A stretch of DNA of 64,000 bases from Dromiciops gliroides (taxonomy: Eukaryota; Chordata; Mammalia; Microbiotheria; Microbiotheriidae), in NCBI RefSeq assembly GCF_019393635.1, contig NC_057861.1, positions 301,279,468 through 301,343,467 on the forward strand, written 5' to 3'. The position numbers and the translations under genes were made by a program. Positions 9,721-33,800 of the stretch are shown one piece after another (position 1 is the stretch's first letter; each line of letters opens with the position of its first letter). Under the pieces are notes generated by a model, which saw only the letters and a list, made by a program, of their open reading frames with translations, was not told the DNA's origin and ran no database searches.

Positions 9721-10313
9721 TAAAATTTTGTGTGTTTTGCATTGGCATTTCATTATTGTTTTTTGCTTTGTTTTAAAACATCAAATAGGAACATTATATA
9801 CATCAAGACAATACAAATAATGTCTGGCGCCCAGAATTTTTCCCCAGAGTGTTTTTAACCTAAAAAAAAAAATTTAGATGGAAAGTTCTAACTTTGCCAT
9901 CTTGAATTTTAATTGTCTTTAGTAACTACAGCTCACTTCTAAAATTAGATTTTCTTGTCACATTCATTGGAGAAGCAAAGGTAGATAGGAATTCTGTTCA
10001 TTATGTGAAGAAATATTTTTGTATTCATTATGTAAAGAAATATTTTCCTAAAGTAGTATGGAGCATTCTGAATTTTTTTTAAATTTTGTCTTTATGTGCT
10101 TTGTATGCTTTAAGTGCACCTCTTTTTCTTCTCAATAGTTGTTGGCCATGAAGTGAATATTTCTTTAGTTTCTTTTGTGAATAGGAGATGACTTGAGCAT
10201 ATTGAGCCATTGGATTAAGTTTGAGATTGTATTCATACTATGATTTTAATAATTAACTCTTTTTTCCTTGAAATACAAGTTTTTTATCTTTTTCCCCCTA
10301 TTTTAAAAAACAG

Positions 10314-18800: not shown

Positions 18801-21800
18801 AGTCAATGAAAAATATGAAAATCCTGGACATTGGGGGGGAAATAACAAATTTATGTAGTAACATATTACTCTAAATAATAGTAACAATAATAATAACAAT
18901 AATGATGATGATTCCTAACATTTATACAGCTTCTACTATGTACCAAGTACAGGGCTATGGCTTTACATGTATTATCTTATTTGATCCTTATAACAACCTT
19001 AGGAAACAAGTGCTATCATTATCCCCATTTTACAGATGAGGAAACCCGAATCAGAGAGAGGTTAGTTAAGTGACTTGCCCAGGGTCACACAGGTAATACC
19101 TATCTGTGACTTATCTGTATCAATATCTTCCAAGTGTATCTGGAAGTATCAAGGCACTTGAGCTTTCACCTGAAGAGTCTGCCATACTCCTCTTTGATAT
19201 GCTTATGTCCCTCCCTGATGAGCTAAGCCACCTGCCCTGTGAAAGGTTGCACATAGCTAGCTCCTGCAGAAAACTAAGCCCTCAAGTGAGCTCAGGTCCA
19301 AGCCACAGTGACCCTGGAAAAGACTACTTGGTGGAAGATAGTAAAATTAGCACGTCTACCTGTAACCACTCCTGAGAGTCCCGATATTTCTTTTCCCAGT
19401 CTCCCCAGAGATATTTTGCTCCCTGAAAAGCAAAAGTTGTGGCAGGAGTTGGGGTTCTCTCCTCTGAAGCCATTCCTGATTCTGTCTGGCAGTAGCAACT
19501 CCTACACAGTGAGCCACTGGCAGGTCCTCTGCCAAGGGACCAGCCCAGGAGCCTCCTGGGAAATAGAGCTATGTTTACTATTTCTTTGAAAAGTAATTCA
19601 GGTCTTCATAACTTTAGACCTCTTGCTCTATCTATCCACTGTGCTGCCTAACTTATGGCAAATTTGATTTTTCCTTTGGGTTTATTCCAAGATGGATTAA
19701 ACTTAAGTAAAAAGTAACAGTGTAAATTATATTGCTTATCTCATATCCCCATCAAATTTAATTAAGCCTACATTAAGTCATACTATCAAGCTTTTTAATT
19801 CTCAAAGATATAGAAATGTGTATAGCACACATGTAAATTGGAAGGTTTCATATTTATAGCTTTCAGAAAGCTAGTTGTCTTTTTGGTCTCAGAATGAGAG
19901 AAAATGTTTGACTTGTGATAAAACAGCCCTCACTGAAGATGAAGTATATTTTTTCATTGTGATTTGTTTATTAATTTCATTGTGATTTGTTTATTAACTT
20001 TAAGCTTAAATTGTAGATCTAAATAAAGTTTGGCTTTTTCTGGGAAAAAAAAGATGATGTGTATAGATAACTATAAAGGGGGATTAAATTGTATGTGGCT
20101 TGTTTTAGAATACATCAGGCTAGTTAGAATTATTCATACTAGAGATGCAACAGTTGGCAGAATTCCACATTCTAGAGTTTATAATCTTTTATAATTGTAT
20201 GTGGCTACCTTTTAGCTGTAGGCTTTATTTTAATAGCACTTACTACTATGTTCTGCACACAACCCTAACTTTAACTGACTTCGTAAATTCACTTTTTTCT
20301 TGTCTAGTTTTGTTGTATTTTTTATGTGTTAGGGTATTGTGAAAATGGGTATTTATCCCTTCTGGGCAAGTTGCCATGTGTAACTAAATATATTTCACCT
20401 AATTCCCTAACTCATCTCTTTGTGAAAACAATGTTAATATCAATCTCCCATTGACTGCTAGTGTGCCCTTGTCTTTTATTAGAAGAGCAAGTTCCAAGAT
20501 GCTAATTTTAAAATTTTATTTTTAAACAAAATCACTTCAACTTCAAAGGGCCAGAATGGACAAAAGAAATACCAGATCAATCTAAAAAGTCACTCAGGAC
20601 CTATCCACGTGCTGCTGATAAATAAAGAATCCAGTTCTTCTAAGCCTGTGGTCTTTCCTGTTCCTCCACCTGATGACCTCACACAACCTCCTTCTCAAGT
20701 CTCTACTCCAGTGACTCCACAGAAACCTAATACAGAGCCCCAGAATCTGCCTGAACAACACACCCTTACCAGAGGTCTTCAGCAGACACCAGTTTCAGAC
20801 ACACCCTCAGGTAAGTGTGGAGCCTTTGGGGGGTTTCTTGTTTTTTTTATGTTAGAGGAAGAGAGGCATCAGGAAAACACTACCTAAATTTGTCAGTTAT
20901 AGTAAAATTAATTCATTATTTAAACTATGTGAGATTTAAAATTGGATATTAGATCATAAATCTCCCCTACTTAACCCTTCCCTTAATTCATCTCCCAGAC
21001 TAGTAAATGGAAGAAGCTTCTGGTTTTCTAGATAGAGCCTTTATTGTATATAAGGTGTTGTTGATTAGAAGGATAGGAAAACAGAAATACAGTACAAATC
21101 GTCTTAAATCTAGGCTTAGTCTATATTCCTTATAAAAACTCACCAAACCGATTTAGGCCACCTTTGGAGTGAGTCAGACCGTCTGTGCCGCGCCGCCCGG
21201 AGTCCCGCCAAGCCGGCAAAAAAGGCTACTCCTTTTTTCCACCCCGGAAGTCAAAAAAAAAACCCGGCAGGCAGTCTGACATGCGCAGCAGGCGCACTGT
21301 ACCTGGCAGGCAGTCTGACATGCGCAGCAGGCGGACTGTACCCGGCAGGCAGTCTGACATGCGCAGCAGGCGGACTGTTCATCTCCTCCCCAAAAGGGTG
21401 GTCCTTGAAAAACTGGCATCTTTCAGTTATCCTAACCGACTGTTAAAAACTTTCATATTTTACCACATTTCCCCCCTTTGCTTCCTCAAGAAACGGAATG
21501 TTTCCTTGATGGAACAGTAAAAAGAATATAATAACTTTTGCTGACTAATAATATGCGAACAACAATACAGAAAAGGAAGAGAGGAAAGTTTTGTCCAGAG
21601 GGGCGATTTTTTTTTTTCCTCATGAACCGACGCTTTGACATTAGTCTTGCAAAGGGAGAGCCTCTGCAGAGAGTACATGTTACAGATAGTATATAACAGA
21701 AAGGAGATAGTAAAAGCTAATAAAGCAAAACAGTTCATATAAAGTCTCTGAGTTCTCTTGTCTTCTTGAAGTGGTAAGATGTCATCAGGAGGAAACTGGA

Positions 21801-24800
21801 TTCTGGTCTGGAAAACTGGATTATCTTCTTTAACTGTTTGAATTGCTGTATTTTTAAAACCTTAGCATAGCATTGTCAATGATCAAATTAATAAATTCCA
21901 TTACATTCCCTCCTTTATATGGTTAGACTTGTAATAGAGGGTTGAGGTAGTTATGCAATGTGTAACACTTTTTACCACCATGTGTCTGGATCAAAGCCAA
22001 ATTTAGTATGTGTTCATGACACCTGAAAATGTTATGGAAAGGTTATCATACCATATCTCATGGTTCTGAGACAGCCAGTGATTGTGCTAGGCCACAGGTG
22101 AATTCAACTGAGTGAGATAAAAAGATAAATAAGTTCAGTTAAATTAGGTTAAATTAGGAGGGAGAGAGGATGAATACTGGACTGTGCCTAGTAATTGTGC
22201 TCTACATAGTCACCATCATAAGCAAACCATGGACTTACGTATACCTGTCTCTCCTTTTGTTGCACATATATTCTCTCCAGGGCCTGCGTCAGAGTTCACA
22301 GCAAGTTAGTCTCTGAAATGATAAGTTTCCATATTTCTGAAATCTCATTAATTTCACCAAAGACAATATGATGGTAAAAATGTGTGCTATGCTGCATAAC
22401 TGAGAATATATTAGTGATATATACAATAATTCCAAACCATACCCAGAGTATAATGACATATAAATAATAAACGAATGTAAATAGCTGATTATATTAGACA
22501 TTGTTACATAATCTTCTTTTAGACATTATTACATAATCTTCTTTTAGCAAGTAGACCACATCATCTTATACATGAATTCTCTGGTATAACAGTAGCAGAT
22601 ACTTAAAGTGGTGATTAATTCATCAAAAAGAAATAAGACTTCAATTAGCAAGATTCAATATTCAATGTTTTCAGTGAGGTATCAAGCAATTTCTGGTACT
22701 TTTTAGTTAAACAGAACAACATACAAGAGAGGAGAAAAATAAATAAATAAAACAAAACTCATTAGAACTCATGGTTCTCTCAAAAAGAAAGAGTAAATAA
22801 AAAAAAAGAAGAATTCTGGTAGCTTCTGAGGCCCGATAGCCTCACCCACAGCATATACTTAAAATGTCTTTGAATAATCACTTAGTTTACAAAATTTAGT
22901 TTTAAAGAAAAGCAAAAGAAACAAAAGTAAAAAAAAAACCAAAGCAAAACCAAAAATAAAAAATAAAAAGCTAAAGATTCGCTAAGCACCCTTTTGTGCT
23001 CTTAAAGAACTTAAAGGTGCAGTCAATTCCAGGTCTTTTCAGTGCCTTTCAAAAGTCAAAACAAAAACAAAAAAACCCAAAAATTAATAAAAAAAAAAAA
23101 TAGTTGAGGTAGGCCAGAAAACTAGGCCATGTACTTCAGTGCTTTTGCCTGTAGAAGGAAATGCTTGTTAAATTTTAAGGTATTTAAGCTGCTAGAGTTT
23201 GGGGTATGCCACATTGTTTTAACTGGTTCCCCAATTCTCTGCATGCCAAAGTGGCAGGGGTTTCTGAATTGTCATTGATCTTTCTAATGCTGTCATAATG
23301 TTCTTTATGGTAGAAAATGTGGAGTTCTCTAGCATCAGTTTTGTCTGTGCCACTGATTTTCAATAAAGGCTGATTTAATTGATGAACCACAACATTCAGC
23401 TGATGCTGCTTAGCAAATGCTACAATTGTATCATTTCCTCCCCACTTTCCAAATTTCTTTAATTCATCAACATATTCTTCAAAAGGGGAGTCATTTACTA
23501 TAAAAGACTCAAACTCTTGTCTATGGTTAATCATATAAGAAGCAGCTTCTTGTCTGTGTCTGAGATGATTTCTACAGTGACCTTCTAGCTGGTCTGCTAA
23601 AGCCCTAAAAAGGCAATTTCCGTCTCCTGATACTTTACGAAGACTGAGTCCCAAAGCATTTAACTGATCAGTGGGATTATTAAATGGGAACTGCCTTTTT
23701 CCTCTGAACTCCCTTTGCTCTTTAACAGTTGCTATCTTTAGGGTTTTTACCTCTTTAGCGTCTACCTCAGGTCTATCTGAAATCTCTTCACCTATGAATG
23801 GTGCAGGCTTTATATGAGAGCAATGAATCCATGAGTCTTTTTCACCAATTTTAATGGCAGTAGGAGTTGTCAATAATACCTGAAAAGGTCCTTCCCAGGC
23901 AGGTTGAGTTCCACTGGTTTTCTGAAAATTCTTTACATATATTTTATCTCCTGGGTTGAAGTTATGCAATGAAAAGTCTAATGGTCCTGCCTGGACCACA
24001 GCTCCTGCCTCATGGAGTTCACGTAGCCTGGTCTGTAATTCCTGTATATAGGAAGCAACAGAAGTATCACCTCCCACCAGTGATGTATAAACTGGGGAAA
24101 AAGTTTTAGCTTGGATAGGAGGGTGACCAAAAAGCATTTCATAAGGAGATATATGAAGTTCTCCTCTTGGTCTACTTCGTAGATAGAATAATGCCAATGG
24201 TAGAACATCAGGCCATTTCAAATGGGTTTCAGTACATAATTTGCCAATCATACTCTTAAGCTCTTTATTCATACGTTCGACTTGGCCTGAACTTTGTGGA
24301 TGGTAGGGCGTGTGGAATTTTGGAGTCACTCCCAAGAAAGAGTAGATTTGGGATAAAATCGAATCAGTGAAATGTGTGCCTTTGTCAGAATCGATGCGGG
24401 CTGGTGGGCCAAAACGAGGTACTATCTCTTTAAGAAGAATTTTGGCAACAAAGGCAGCTGTGGCTCGGGGGCTGGGAAAGGCCTCCACCCACCGAGTGAG
24501 CTGATCAACTATAACAAGGCAAAATTTATAATGTCCTGCTTTTGGCATAGTAATATAATCAATTTGTAAGTGCTCAAAAGGTGTATATGCTAGAGGACGC
24601 CCTCCATAAGCTTTGGCCTTAAAAGCATACTGATTATAAGACTGACATGTGGAGCAGCCCGAGCAGATTCGAGATGCTGTATTAGTCACACCTGGTGCTA
24701 TCCAGGTTCTCTTAATAGAGTCTACAATGCCTTGTGTACCAAAATGGCCTTTTCTGTGAACAGAGAGGCATACCTGGTGGTAGAATTTCCGGGGAAGAAA

Positions 24801-27800
24801 TGGCTTACCTTCCGGAGACACCCAGATGCCATTGATCTGTTTTGCCTTAAATTTCTTTTTCCACTTTTCTACTTCAGAATTGTCATAGGTTAGGTTGGAA
24901 GGAATATCCTCAGAAGGTGAAAGGTTAAATACATGTTCAGGAGCTTCTAATGCAGCTAGCTTGGCTGCAGAATCGGCTCGTGCATTTCCCTTTGAAACAG
25001 GATCACTATTCCCTGTGTGGGCAGGGCAATGTACAACGGCTAGGGAAGAAGGCAGTTTTAGGGCATCTAAGAGGTCCTTGATAAGGTCCCCATTGGCAAT
25101 AGCCTTGCCCGAGGATGTTAGAAAGCCTCGTTGACGCCAAATCATACCAATAAAGTGGCATATGCCAAAGCCATATTTCGAGTCAGTAAAAATGGTGGCA
25201 CTCTTATCTTTAGCTATATTACAGGCCTGTGTAAGAGCCACAAGTTCAGCAGCCTGTGCACTAAAATGGGAAGGCAGAGAAGCTGCCCAGAGGGTGTCAT
25301 AATCAGAAACTACAGCAGCTCCAGTAAAACGGGTTCCCTCTCTCATAAATGAGGAACCATCTGTATAGAGGACAAGATCAGGATTTTCTAAAGGTGTATC
25401 AAAAAGATCGTCACGGGGTTTTTCAGCCATAGCAACTAAAGAAGCACAGTCGTGCAATGGTTCCCCCGAGAATGGTAAGTTAGGGAGTAGTGTTGCTGGA
25501 TTAAGAACTGTGCAGCGTTTTAAAGTGATATTCTCATTACCTAACAGGGTTATTTCATACTTAGCCAGCCTTTGATCTGAAAAGGCTTGTGTCCTGTGAC
25601 GTAGTAAGAGAGCCTCCACTTCGTGAGGGCATTGCACAGTTAGAGGGTTACCTAGGACCAAATCAGAGGCTTTTTCTACCAAAAGCGCTGTGGCCGCCAC
25701 TGCTCTAAGGCAAGGTGGCGCTCCAGCCGCTACAGGGTCCAGCTGAATTGAATAGTAGGCTATAGGACGTTGGTTAGGCCCCAGTGACTGAGTCAGGACT
25801 CCAGAAGCCACCCCCCTTTGTTCATGCACAAAGAGAGTGAAAGGCTTACTATAATCTGGCAGTCCTAGGGCAGGTGCTGATAACAAGGCCCGTTTTAATT
25901 CTTTTATGGCTGAGAGATGCTGGGGATCCAACTGTAAACTGTCTGGAACAGAACTTTTTGTAAGAGCTATGAGGGGTTTAGTAATTTCACCAAAAGAGGG
26001 TATCCATTGTCTACAGTACCCAGCTGCTCCCAGAATGGCTCTCAACTGCCTCTTAGTAGTGGGGGCAGAGAGTTGTTGAATGGCCTGGACTCTCTTAGAA
26101 GAGACAGAGCGAGTTCCAGCAGCCAAAATAAATCCTAAATATTCTACCTGGGGCAAACACCATTGTACCTTTGTCTTGGAAACCTTGTGTCCTCTCTTGT
26201 GCAGCTCCAGCAGTAAGTGACGGCTATCTTCCTGACAAATTTCAGCATTAGGAGAGGCCAAAAGTAAGTCATCAACATATTGTACTAGTATGGAGCCCTT
26301 AAAGGTAATAGAGGCCAGATCCTGCTGTAAAATTTGGGAAAATAATGTGGGACTGTCTACAAATCCCTGTGGGAGTCTAGTCCAGGTCCACTGTCTATTT
26401 TTCCAGGTAAAAGCAAATAAATATTGGAAGTCCTCATGTACTGGTATGGAGAAAAAGGCAGAGCAAAGGTCTACCACTGTGAAACATGTAGATTCATAGG
26501 GAATCGATGAAATTATCGTAGCCGGGTTTGGAACTATGGAATGTCTAGGAATAACATAATTATTAATCGCTCTAAGATCTTGCACAAAACGATAAACAGG
26601 TTTACCATCTGGCCCAGGCTTGGGTTTTTTAACTGGCAAAATGGGAGTATTGCATGGAGAGTGATGACATGGAATAATAATACCCTGGCTTTTCAAAGCC
26701 TCAATTATAGGGGTGATCCCTTCTATTGCTTCCCTAGACAATGGATACTGTGGAATGGAGGGGGGTGGTCCCCCCTTAACTTTAAAGGTAACAGGCATGG
26801 CAGACTTAAGGAGCCCCACCTCATTAGGGGATGAGGCCCATAAAGACTCAGGAATGTCAGAGGGGATTTTGGATACCTCCCCTGCTGTTCCTTGAGCTTC
26901 TGTAAGTAAAATTGGTAATAAATGAACAGTATCCTCTGGCAATTGTAAGGAGACAGCCCCATCTGGAGCACAAGATATGGTTGCTCTAAGCTTGCAAAGG
27001 AGATCACGACCTAATAAATTTACAGGGGCATCAGGCATGAGTAAAAATGAATGTTCCACTGTTAAGGGCCCCATAGATACCATGCGAGGATTCAATTTTG
27101 CCACTCTCTGGCTCTTTCCTGAGACTCCCACTACATTCAAAAATCCTACAGGTCTACACCCAGCATCTGGTTTGCTTACTAATACTGATTTAGAGGCTCC
27201 TGTGTCTAGCAGACAATCATAATAAGTCTCCCCCACTTTTAAGGTGACATGTGGTTCATTACTCTGGGGAGGTGAATGGACTGGCACAAGTGCATTCAAA
27301 AAATCCGGATCTGGGAATATATGGCTTTCATTATCTATGTTCCATTCCTCCCCAAGACACCATCATTCCTGTGTCCTCTTCTGAGGGGGGTCTTGGTTAC
27401 CATTATTCTGGTACTGCCTTTCTGTATTCCTCCAAAAAGATCTATTTCTATTTTGATTTCGCCTGTAATTAGAATTAGAATTTCTTCTCCAAGTCCTACA
27501 TTCTCTCAATTCATGCCCCTCCTTACGACAGTAACAACACACCTTAGTGTCCTTGTTCCGGTGTCCACATGGCTGACTAGGAATCGCTGGTGCCAGAATG
27601 CTCTGTTTAGGGTGATCTGGATCTTCCTCACGTGAGTCAAAGACATAATTTGCAAGTTCCTTAATTCTATCTACTGAGAGATTTCTCCAGTCTGGACATT
27701 GTTTCAGAAAGTATCTGCGTATTTCTGGCAGTGAATTATAAACAAATGTGTTGAGAATGATACAGGAATCTCTTAAATCTACTGGATCCAATCTGGTGTA

Positions 27801-30800
27801 CTGTCTAGCGGCCTCACAAAGTCTATCATAAAATCTGTTTGGTCTTTCATTAGCCTCCTGAGGTAGGCTTAAAAATTTCTGCCAGTTTTCCGGTTTTCTA
27901 GAGCAAGATTCCATTCCCTTCAGAAGTGTTTCTCTAGCATCTTTTAATCTTTGGAAATCCCTATCATCATTATAATTCCACTCTGGATCCTTTAGAGGCC
28001 ATTCCACATCGGCCTTACCTTTCGCAACAAGGGCATTTCCTGCTGAGATAATATCTGTAATCTCAGTTGGGGACAGTAAAGTTTCCAAAAGGCAAGTAAC
28101 ATCAGCCCAACTGGGTTGATATGCATTAAATATAGTCCTTAACTGTGAAATTACAGTGTTTGGATTTTTCTCAAAACTAGGGATGAAAGATTTCCATGCG
28201 CTCAAGTCACTTGGTCTAAAGGGGCTATATTTTCTGACTTGAATTGGCACTCCCTTCTTACTATGTTCTATAGCTTCCTGCAGAGGGAGTAGTTTCTGCT
28301 GATCTGATTCTGAACTTGGATCATCTCTAGTAGAAACAGCCATTTTGAGGTCTCTCTCCATATGTGAGAGTTTCCCCCACATCATAACAATGATAATAAC
28401 AAAAACAATGATAATAACAAAAACAAAAAAAAAACAACAAAAAAAAATAAAATCCTTAGTCGTATGAACTATGGATGTGGTATTAAAAGGTATTTCAATT
28501 GCAGGCATAAAATTTCTACTTATATTAAACGTATTTTCCCAAAGATTCTCACGTATACTATTATACAAAAAACTTTTTGCTGCCTGAATGAGGAAAAAAC
28601 CAATAATGTTATGAAGGACCATTGAGTAAACTATTCCTCTAAGTCGGGATGTTATGCTGTCCCAATACATTCCGATGAGAAAAATCAAAGGGATGGTAGA
28701 ATATTCGAGCATCTTGCCCTTTAAACTGGGCTGGCTTTTCTGTTTAAAGCAAGACTTTTAGAGGCTTAAAGTCTTTAAGGGAGATTAGACAAAGGGAAAG
28801 TCCGCGGGGGGGGGGGGGGGGGGTATTTGGAAAATCCACCGAATTAGCCGGCTTATGGCCAAACTAGGGAGGGTGGGAGGGTCCTTAAGGTCCCTTCGTG
28901 GTCGCCAAACTGTGAGATTTAAAATTGGATATTAGATCATAAATCTCCCCTACTTAACCCTTCCCTTAATTCATCTCCCAGACTAGTAAATGGAAGAAGC
29001 TTCTGGTTTTCTAGATAGAGCCTTTATTGTATATAAGGTGTTGTTGATTAGAAGGATAGGAAAACAGAAATACAGTACAAATCGTCTTAAATCTAGGCTT
29101 AGTCTATATTCCTTATAAAAACTCACCAAACCGATTTAGGCCACCTTTGGAGTGAGTCAGACCGTCTGTGCCGCGCCGCCCGGAGTCCCGCCAAGCCGGC
29201 AAAAAAGGCTACTCCTTTTTTCCACCCCGGAAGTCAAAAAAAAAACCCGGCAGGCAGTCTGACATGCGCAGCAGGCGCACTGTACCTGGCAGGCAGTCTG
29301 ACATGCGCAGCAGGCGGACTGTACCCGGCAGGCAGTCTGACATGCGCAGCAGGCGGACTGTTCATCTCCTCCCCAAAAGGGTGGTCCTTGAAAAACTGGC
29401 ATCTTTCAGTTATCCTAACCGACTGTTAAAAACTTTCATATTTTACCACAACTATATGAGGCATTATACTATTTATTCAATAAGCATTTTATTAAATACT
29501 TTCTCAAGCTCGTTATTACACTAAGCATTGTGAAAAGTACAAAATAAATATTAGAAACAGACTCTGTATCAAGGAGTTTACTGTTTATTTGGGGATTGGG
29601 GGGAGGGATCCTTAAGTATTCTGCAATAAAGAATTACACTCTTGCACAAAGTCCAATTAGAATTAAAATGCTTTTTTTTTTATTTGGCACTACGGTAGGT
29701 TAACTGGAGGGAAGTCAAAGACATCACCTGAATGGGAGGAGAGCTAAGAAACATTCTTCTGCCAGAACAGAAAGAAGGCAAAAACTTTTATAGAGGATAG
29801 ATGGGGTGTCCACTTGAAAGTGGAAAGTTCCTTTTGGGTGTGGGGGAAGGCCTGGATGCTTATCATATTCCTGAGTCCCAGAGGGATTTTTTTGAAATGA
29901 TGGTCCTGACCTTTGGGGTTATCTCTGTCTCCTGGCTCCCTCAGGTAGTAACCACACCTAATTGGCTTTCCTGCTATAGAATTTTATCTCCCTTTACTTC
30001 TTAGGTATGTCTATCCTGATATCTAGTTTGTCAATCAATACTTAAATAGTTCCTTGATTCCTTGACTTATCAGTCCTGTAATCTAGGCATCTTTGGTTTT
30101 GCTTCTCACTGGAGAAACTTCTGATTTATCCTAAGCCCCATTTCAGGGAGGAAATATGCTTCATCCAAGTAGAGAACAAATAAAGTTTACCTGTAAGCAA
30201 TCATACAATACCTTAGACTTTACATAGCTACTGTAGAGATTAAAGAAAGGTGATTGTTGCCCAAGTTATTCTTCCCTTCCTGAGTTTACGTTTTTTATAT
30301 TCTCAAACTCCATAGAGAAATAGAAAAGCAATTCTTACAATTGGGGTTCTTCACCTTTCTCCAATAGTAATGGGACTAGAGAGGAAAGGAATTATTTGAG
30401 TGACCTTGGAGAGGGAGAGGTTGGTGAGAGAGAAGTCAAAGGTGATTCCAAAGTTTCAAGAGTAGTTGACTGGGAGAGAATAATGAGGGAAAGGGAATTC
30501 AGGAAATGGAGACAGTTTTTCCAGGAAAAGGTAATTTCCCCAGTTTTAGACATTTTAAATTTGAGGTAACATTGGCATCCAACAGAAATATAGTTAGAAA
30601 TACAGGTTTAGTGTTTATGAGGAAAGTCATGGCTATAGATAGAGTTGGGGCTTGCTCAAATAAAAGCTGATAGATGAAATTATGAGTTGGGTTAATTCTC
30701 CCTTCCCATTTCCCTTTTAACCTCCAGGAGGCTAAAGGTTTATTGGCAAATTCCATGAGAACTTGTAGCATCTTCCTTAATCTCAGCTCCTAAAAACAAG

Positions 30801-33800
30801 TCTTTGTAACCTCAAAACAACTTAAGGAACTTTTAGGAGATTTTAATTTAGAGACAGGTTTATAGATGTCTAGTACTTTACAGTTTAGTCAGTGGTAGTA
30901 AACCTTGGCCAGATGTGAGAAGAACAATAATTGTCTAACCCAGTTTTTTTTTCTACTCTGTAAAGACTAAAGTAGTACAACTCTATCACCACCCCATTCC
31001 AGCCTTCCAGACTCAGTTCTGTATGTCAGTCTTACAATAGATGTAACAGTCATCCACTAACTCAAAAGAATCTCCCTCCTTACCTCTCTTGAATGTTAAC
31101 TGTATTCTTAAACCAAACTCATTTGACATAGCAAAGATAAATGAACCTGGAGCTAAGACATCCACCCTGTTATCTTTTTTCCCCTTATCCTTGTGTTTAA
31201 ACTGGAGAAAGGAGTAGCCAGTTCTTTAATTTTATAATATGGGAAAGAGAATCCATGATTGAAACATGTAGTTTATTTTAGTTTCTTAGCCTCTATCCCC
31301 ACCAAACAAAAGTTTTGCTAGAACTAAGAGTGTTGCTGCTTGCTGTTTGAATTTAATCTCCTCTTACTTCCCAGGCTACCTTCTAGAGGGAATGGTTAAA
31401 AGCAATAAAGGGGATACTATTGTATAAGGAATACTACTACCAAGCTTGTTGGCAGACAAGGAAATGAAGGAAAAGGGGGGAAAGATGGTGGAAATCTATA
31501 AACCAGATCTAATTAGTTCCTGAATAGCAGAATCATTGCTATTATTTTAGAATAGAAAAAAATGCCACTATTTGAATAGTATTCAATACTCAAAAAATAT
31601 TGAATTCCCTATGGTCTGTTATTGTTATTAATGAATTTGATGCTTTGGATGAGTTACAAGAGTCCCTTTATAAAGTAGATGAGGAGTGTATTGTGCTATG
31701 TCCTCTCTCCCTCTTACCTATTCAAATCAAATCCCAAATCTTAGGGGGGAAAATAGCACTTTCTTGATTTATCTCTAAAAAAAGGATCATAACCTTGCAG
31801 TTTCTGGTTTAGAGCACTTTTTTCCTTATTCCCTAGGCCTTTATACAATTTGCAGTGCCAGCTCGACAACCTACCTGCAGAACTGTAGGAACTTGTCTTA
31901 AAAGAACCCATACTTTGTTTCAAGGTTTCCCCAGGGAGATGGTGATGGAACAGGAAACAAATTCCAGACCACTAACTTTCTACTCATTGTTACCATTGTT
32001 CTAGTTACTATAGGGGAATGAAAAATGAACTTCAAGAGCAGTCTCAAATTTAGGGCACTGCTGGGAATGTCCATCCCTCCATCTAATACAATACTATTTT
32101 GCTGTTTAGCTAACTGATATGAGCAGTGTGATATAATGGAAAGAACAGTGGACTTAAGAGTTAAAGGACCAGGGCTCCAAACCTCTGATACTACCTGTGT
32201 AATCATGGACAAGTCACCTAATCTCTCTTCCAGTTCTAAATTTGGATTCCTATGAGAATTAGTATTCTATTTTGATTTTTCTTCTGGTGTCTTTATGTAT
32301 TTCAATGCAAATATGCCTTATTCTAGGTAAACTTGTTACCTAGTCAAATTTTCAGACTAGCGATATTTGCTTTAGTATGATATTGTAAGTTAACTTTATT
32401 AGATGTGGCTCCTACTCCATTTAGCTTGGCTTACAGAGTTCTAGAAGTGTTTCGGGGAGATTCCCAGGAATGGAAGAAAATTTGTCTTTACTATCTGAAG
32501 GTGAGAGATCCTCCTAACAAGTCAGGAAAATACAATAAACTAGGGTTTTAAATGAAATTATGTTTATTTACATACCTCCAAAAGTAGAACTAGCCAATAC
32601 TTTATAATCCTTTACTTCATTTTCAGTTTAGTCTTCTGAGTTCCATGGAGATGTCATGGATGTCATGGGGAAGAGGCATTTGCATCACTGAAATATACCT
32701 TATAGTCAACTGTGTTAAGATGTATGAAGTGAGGGATGGATATAACTTGACCTTTACTAGTTTTAATGCATGTTTTAACTCTCTAGTGCCTTTATTTTGC
32801 TTTGGTTAGTATTACTTATGTGATTCATCTGGATTTTAAGTGAAGTAGAATTGAATATAATTTTAGTAAGAACTGAAAGTACCAACTAAGTTCACAGAAA
32901 ATGAAGTATTCACCTACTAGTTTGCCAGCCAGTAACTAGTATGTATACCTATTCTGTTTCATCTAGAACCCTAATTTCAATCATCCTTCAAACTGTTGTT
33001 TTCCTAAAATAAGATTTCTCCCTACAGATATTTAAATGTGAATATCTATGGCATAGGTTTTCCTTTGAAATATGTATTATAAAACTAGGAAACAAAATTC
33101 AAGTGAATTTTGGGCAATGGAATCTCTACAACATAACACCACACATAATAAAACATTCTTGCATTGTTTAAAAGTTTTTCTTCTGAGCCTAATCTCTGGG
33201 TCTGTCTTACCTAGGCCAGAAGTTAGTAACCACTTTTGGGCCTAAAAGCTTTGACCTGCTGTTTCCAAGCTGGTCTGGTTTGCTCCTACCCCCTCCCCCA
33301 AATCCTTGTAATATCATATTGGTACAAGACTTAGTGTACTCACCCAAGCTGATTAGCTTAGCCCACTGTAACTTCCAAGCTCCAGTGATGCACCTAACTT
33401 CATCCCAGAAGCATGAATTGTAGGCATATACCATCATTCCCAGCTCAAAAAAATTTTATTAAAGCCAGAGTTAGCAAGAGATTTTCTCTTCTCAAAGTTC
33501 AAGTATTTGAACCTTGCATGATAATGGAATGTTGATTTGGCTACCTGTTATTTAGTTATCAATAGCCATTTCTCGATGTCTTTAGATACTAAGTGAACTA
33601 CAACAAAGTGACCTGAAGTATAATTTTTTAAAAAAATCTTCATCATGTTTTTGTTTGATAGGATCTATTAGTGGTGATATCATTGATGAATTAATGTCTT
33701 CAGATGGTAAGTTGCCTAAACTTATAACTATTGTCTATCTTCACACTGATCTACAGAAGTGAACTATTCTAAAAATTCTGTGAATTATTAACCCTTAATG

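Follow-up and report, generated by a model that had tools for sequence, protein, structure and literature searches.

A class-I-like endogenous retrovirus of Dromiciops gliroides in which the pol frame continues past integrase into an OTUD3-type OTU domain

A stretch of 64,000 nucleotides of the genome of Dromiciops gliroides (RefSeq assembly GCF_019393635.1, contig NC_057861.1, forward-strand positions 301,279,468 to 301,343,467; hereafter the window) contains, on its minus strand, a provirus bounded by two long terminal repeats (LTRs), the pol frame of which continues beyond the integrase into an OTU domain homologous to that of the deubiquitinase OTUD3. The features of this element, numbered along the window and given from the 5′ to the 3′ end of the element, are the following:

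20928–29450, minus strand: whole provirus, LTR to LTR (from the LTRs, frames and flanks)
29451–29454, no strand: target site duplication ACTA, right copy (flank sequence)
28911–29450, minus strand: 5′ LTR, 540 bp, 100% identical to the 3′ LTR, with TG at its start and CA at its end
28890–28907, minus strand: primer binding site, separated from the 5′ LTR by 3 bases (read from the sequence)
27363–28757, minus strand: gag frame, 464 aa from stop to stop, with a Gag_p30 capsid and one CCHC knuckle
23184–27362, minus strand: pol frame, stop to stop, uninterrupted from protease to OTU
23802–23966, minus strand: integrase C-terminal domain, MLVIN_C (Pfam, E 4.7e-17)
23673–23801, minus strand: linker between integrase and OTU, 43 residues (similarity shuffles)
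23247–23672, minus strand: OTU domain homologous to OTUD3 (Pfam, PDB sequence, tblastn and structure)
23622–23624, minus strand: catalytic Asp codon of the OTU domain
23613–23615, minus strand: catalytic Cys codon of the OTU domain
23298–23300, minus strand: catalytic His codon of the OTU domain
23184–23246, minus strand: C-terminal tail, 20 residues plus the stop codon (translation)
21468–23183, minus strand: AT-rich stretch of 1.7 kb at the position expected for env (three-frame reading, Pfam and tblastn)
21468–21479, minus strand: purine tract adjoining the 3′ LTR (read from the sequence)
20928–21467, minus strand: 3′ LTR, 540 bp, of the same sequence as the 5′ LTR
20924–20927, no strand: target site duplication ACTA, left copy (flank sequence)

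Since the two LTRs are identical, the provirus was inserted recently or its LTRs were homogenised by gene conversion. The primer binding site is taken here to match the 3′ end of tRNA-Arg. The gag frame gave a Pfam match to Gag_p30 (E 4.3e-24) and is terminated by a UGA at 27365–27363, directly after which pol begins in the same frame. Counted from a TTG, the pol open reading frame (23184–27299, minus strand) specifies 1371 aa; it bears the protease DTG and reverse transcriptase (RT) YVDD motifs, an RNase H, and HHCC and DDE-type integrase matches, and upstream of the integrase C-terminus Pfam recognised RVP, RVT_1, RNase_H, H2C2 and rve. From there on the order is integrase C-terminal domain, linker, OTU domain and tail, with no stop codon in between. 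Each LTR also contains a tandemly repeated, GC-richer unit with a 39-base spacing (21262–21378 and 29245–29361), which could be an enhancer repeat.

The initial annotation had proposed that pol runs past integrase into an OTU domain, at 23184–23700. This was borne out when the piece 24170–23184 was translated: MLVIN_C (residues 69–123, E 4.7e-17) and OTU PF02338 (residues 182–289, E 5.9e-14) were matched in one stop-free frame, both above their curated cut-offs, and the OTUD3 homology (23247–23672) falls within that interval. The PF02338 match scored 53 bits, against a cut-off of 23.3, with Asp, Cys and His in place; in the translated piece they are Asp183, Cys186 and His291, and in the numbering from the TTG D1226, C1229 and H1334, so that the catalytic triad is retained, as had been claimed. 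The proposed likeness to OTUD3 was equally clear, the best match among PDB sequences being OTUD3 (4bou; E 1.6e-59, 204 bits) and the second OTUD5, with just 43 bits. Over about 142 aa, identity was 62% to the 4bou chain and up to 67% to database rows; the predicted fold superposed on the OTUD3 crystal structure with a root-mean-square deviation of 1.0 Å, and the lysine that is acetylated in OTUD3 (K129) was kept. The Cys–His spacing is 105 residues, as annotated, but against the figure of about 107 given for human OTUD3, the value was 106 in four of the four OTUD3 sequences measured (none human). From its sequence, the OTU domain derives from an OTUD3-type protein. The kept triad, the predicted fold and the constraint on its sites would suggest that it is catalytically active.

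When protein databases were searched with the OTU domain, 111 of 258 candidates passed an E value of 1e-5. All those with names were OTUD3 proteins, from mammals and birds and from a single snake and two fish species or rows; the remainder were unnamed or otherwise labelled. Identity to the named mammal and bird proteins was 57–67% (koala 65.7%; best rodent rows 67%), to the snake protein 62% and to the fish proteins 56–57%. Trees were built from these rows, leaving out OTUD1, OTUD5 and other subfamilies. Among 112 rows the proviral domain fell between fish and amniotes (branch 0.87), and in a 27-row subset it fell beside the mammals (branch 0.92), both with weak support; in either tree its branch was longer than that of every vertebrate OTUD3 row, that of koala being 0.024–0.03. 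Approximately unbiased (AU) tests on the subset did not reject its grouping with koala, sauropsids, the snake, all amniotes or fish (P = 0.235–0.345), the mammal grouping being already present in the subset tree. Single residues conflict. At the K129 position, the proviral domain has lysine, as do nine mammal and bird rows (one unnamed), where the snake row has Q and the fish rows have E. At two other positions (G26A and Q50H, numbered as in the consensus comparison below) it agrees instead with the fish pair and with three rows that are divergent and unnamed, and at V129I and R131K with the snake and one unnamed row. A marsupial-specific origin is not claimed, koala OTUD3 being no nearer than that of rodents and all AU groupings still standing. 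As the initial annotation had noted, the coding sequence is intron-free, the frame being open through the domain, and this fits a capture from a spliced host mRNA.

The age of the domain and the constraint upon it were judged against a consensus of 106 amniote rows, i.e. the 111 matches less five rows (two from fish, three divergent and unnamed), with query-gap columns removed and with unnamed rows retained when they fell in the amniote part of the tree. The proviral OTU differs from this consensus at 48 of 142 positions. Changes avoid the deeply conserved sites (13 of 70 changed and 57 kept, versus 35 of 72 changed elsewhere; Fisher P = 1.8e-4), which argues for selection on the OTU protein. 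No stop codon is present in the domain, compared with 2.7 expected under neutrality (P ∼0.065). Because the LTRs are identical yet 48 positions differ, the divergence would predate this insertion, and most likely accumulated while the domain was part of a coding gene. The CpG value of the OTU part is 0.11, low like that of the flanks, but its 507 bases are too few to decide anything.

As to the class of the element, a Gag_p30 capsid, gag and pol in one frame with a stop between them, MLVIN_C, a 4-bp target duplication and a single CCHC knuckle mark class I (gamma- or epsilon-like) endogenous retroviruses (ERVs), and all of these traits are present. The nearest pol among the matches listed (best 120 of 644 relatives) was from Monodelphis domestica, with 72% identity over a 601-aa region; this class-I-like pol (K7E2C3 and relatives) provides the closest RT and integrase. 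The two closest Monodelphis pols (P0113 and P0114) stop six residues past the matched integrase C-terminus, without an OTU domain. A tree of the RT, built from 26 chosen rows, joined the element to three Monodelphis pols (support 100/99) and this group, with weak support (82/77), to a turtle ERV; the element lay outside a six-row clade (100/99) holding the only row named Gammaretrovirus sp., a thin sampling of that genus. The earlier description as gammaretrovirus-like thus holds at the level of class and not at that of the genus Gammaretrovirus, given this position in the tree and the absence of a recognised env.

No env was found in 21468–23183 by reading the three sense frames (over 21468–23400), by Pfam or by tblastn with two proteins that carry an env (P0131 and P0153), although a very decayed env could escape such searches. 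The stretch is broken in all three sense frames, the one 133-aa frame at its end having been scanned by Pfam, and it gave no match when compared with the remainder of the window. Two tandem 25-bp units, 88% alike, lie at 22489–22538, ahead of the 3′ LTR. A motif scan of gag (27363–28757) for the late motifs PPxY, PTAP and YPxxL gave no match either. Since neither an env nor a gag late motif was recognised, the element would seem to be a retrotransposon that stays within the cell.

The segments on either side of the OTU domain are harder to assign. Compared with 15 pol C-termini as an ordinary integrase tail, the linker scored no better than 205 of 1000 shuffles; an 11-residue stretch of it may resemble the BET-binding tail of murine leukaemia virus (MLV) integrase (LKI-type motif), a likeness that was not significant against those C-termini. 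The C-terminal tail holds LKQCG, as found after the OTU domain in the primate OTUD3 row P0064. In a comparison of the tail with OTUD3, chosen after this sighting, 40 of 1000 shuffles did as well, and an internally deleted OTUD3 is possible.

Retroviruses pick up host genes, and the reading preferred here, to which we give a probability of about 0.5, is that an env-less class-I-like ERV captured the OTU domain of OTUD3 behind its integrase and kept it as a working domain that deubiquitinates in cis. The captured piece would be the catalytic OTU domain from an OTUD3 transcript of a vertebrate, placed just after the integrase; the capture would be old, and the lineage would since have retained the OTU as a working protein domain. 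Gag would be made, and readthrough of the in-frame UGA would yield a Gag-Pol ending in integrase, linker and OTU. The OTU might then stay on the integrase, or be cut free by the viral protease. It would strip ubiquitin in cis from its presumed targets, the integrase, Pol and nearby proteins of the particle or pre-integration complex, and the deubiquitinated integrase and its partners could escape the proteasome. Passages of PMC10144533 describe integrase as a target of ubiquitin-dependent degradation and the HIV-1 and MLV integrases as binding Ku70, a protein reported to remove ubiquitin from integrase. An OTU tethered to integrase could therefore do in cis what Ku70 is reported to do.

A number of results weigh against this reading. 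Among the altered OTU positions are the 13 deeply conserved ones, including a Trp changed to Leu. The linker is not explained as an OTUD3 N-terminus, 840 of 1000 shuffles scoring as high against nine OTUD3 sequences. In the RT, the element lies ∼0.35 changes per site from its OTU-less Monodelphis sister, compared with ∼0.9 for the OTU from host OTUD3; either the OTU evolved much faster, or the capture was earlier and was followed by loss in the sisters, or the domain had diverged before it was captured. A sensitive search of the best 120 of the 644 pol relatives found no OTU (best E value 8.4). Among 423 candidate OTU proteins of ∼461–1468 aa there were three matches (two OTUD3, one unnamed) and no fusion, and three scans of viral contigs found no integrase–OTU fusion. 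A single copy has thus been seen among the protein relatives and viral contigs searched, no marsupial genome having been covered as DNA. The same figures bear on the possibility of a one-off event, in which one provirus, belonging to no lineage of such elements, acquired its OTU by template switching with an OTUD3 retrocopy or transcript that had already diverged: no second copy appeared in those collections, and far fewer changes separate the RT from an OTU-less sister than separate the OTU from OTUD3. This is nonetheless highly improbable in our judgement, as a domain so far from host OTUD3, yet constrained at the protein level, would have evolved for a long time within a coding gene, and the copy searches left marsupial DNA uncovered. 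Under the preferred reading, a lineage of copies would stand behind the fusion.

Two other roles for the domain were considered. An active OTU, particle-borne or released by the protease, might work on host innate signalling (e.g. on MAVS) rather than on the integrase. In a review (PMC8066222), OTUD3 is reported to strip MAVS of K63 chains and to weaken interferon signalling, its action on MAVS depending on acetylation of K129; it is because the provirus keeps K129 that this becomes the main rival. It would also suit the retention of the OTU domain alone, that lysine included, and the occurrence of OTU-fold proteins in other viruses (83 matches in BFVD with E values of at most 0.001). An env-less germ-cell element, however, would probably meet innate sensing less directly, and a Pol fusion made by readthrough would supply a low dose of OTU, which leaves this explanation unlikely. 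Slightly less probable again is a catalytically dead or structural passenger, kept as a module that binds ubiquitin or acts as a scaffold, or just not yet decayed. The 48 changed positions, with the Trp-to-Leu change and 12 others at deeply conserved sites, speak for such a passenger, and the lack of stop codons is no more than weakly unlikely by chance; the intact triad, the 57 deeply conserved sites kept, the bias of the substitutions (P = 1.8e-4) and the superposition of the predicted model on OTUD3 speak against it.

The host gene at this locus is E2F5, the matches nearest to the provirus being:

20549–20842, plus strand: match to an E2F5 exon, its end probably partly intronic, 85 bp before the proviral LTR
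33589–33705, plus strand: next E2F5 match beyond the provirus (E2F5 search)

The search, for which a human E2F5 sequence was the query, gave plus-strand matches at 10308, 12609, ∼15000, 18458, 20549, 33589 and 35595 (span 10308–35717), and within the frame 20483–20884 (plus strand) 27 residues match E2F5 in PDB 5tuv without a difference. Since exon matches lie on both sides of it, the provirus is, by sequence, located antisense within an E2F5 intron. A proviral LTR 85 bp past an exon match could influence E2F5 splicing or transcription. An assembly chimera is thought unlikely because the provirus is intact, with both LTRs, its target duplication and an unbroken gag-pol frame, and sits between E2F5 exons. 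When 10 frames of at least 120 aa in the window were scanned with Pfam (three further ones outside gag, pol and the LTRs being left out), only E2F5-type and weak matches were obtained.

To our knowledge, no vertebrate retrovirus has been described with a host ubiquitin-removing enzyme fused to Pol. None with an OTU appeared among the literature matches listed (open-licence papers), the term 'OTU' is absent from the main text of PMC11334065, and no row named retrovirus was among the best 50 listed in each structure search, many BFVD rows being nameless. OTUD3 itself (4bou) resembles the proviral domain in sequence, fold, Asp-Cys-His triad and the K129 position; the host protein has parts before and after its OTU, and the provirus recognisably has the OTU domain only, behind integrase. 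Nairoviruses and other viruses also carry OTU-fold proteases, but these are RNA or large DNA viruses, and their proteins had 10–24% identity among the structural matches listed and are not of OTUD3 type by sequence. A parallel in architecture is Ginger1, whose transposases, in the excerpts of PMC2836005, consist of an integrase-like DDE core with an OTU or Ulp1 protease domain at its C-terminal side, for which the authors suggest a role in transposition. Ginger1 elements are DNA transposons with inverted repeats, and those bearing an OTU come from Hydra, Aplysia and an aphid (same excerpts; the comparison is by description and not by OTU sequence); the provirus, having LTRs, gag and RT instead of terminal inverted repeats, is not a Ginger1. 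Crocodilian ERVs, in the sections of PMC4299795 drawn upon, captured host mRNAs (CrocERV29, KIT ligand; CrocERV31, nectin3) and, as is proposed for the present element, form lineages that keep the captured sequence open, nectin3 standing in place of env. There the captured ligand or adhesion protein has a reading frame to itself (same sections), in contrast to the enzyme domain fused to Pol here.

Taken as a whole, the element may belong to a retrovirus lineage, probably of marsupials, that gained its own integrase-borne deubiquitinase independently of Ginger1, uses it for protection in cis, and dropped env for the life of a retrotransposon; we advance this only tentatively. An active domain would offer a natural experiment in the ubiquitin control of integrase and pre-integration complexes and, beside Ginger1, a second case in which a DDE integrase is paired with an OTU protease. 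The idea can be tested directly, as it concerns one small domain with a solved relative.
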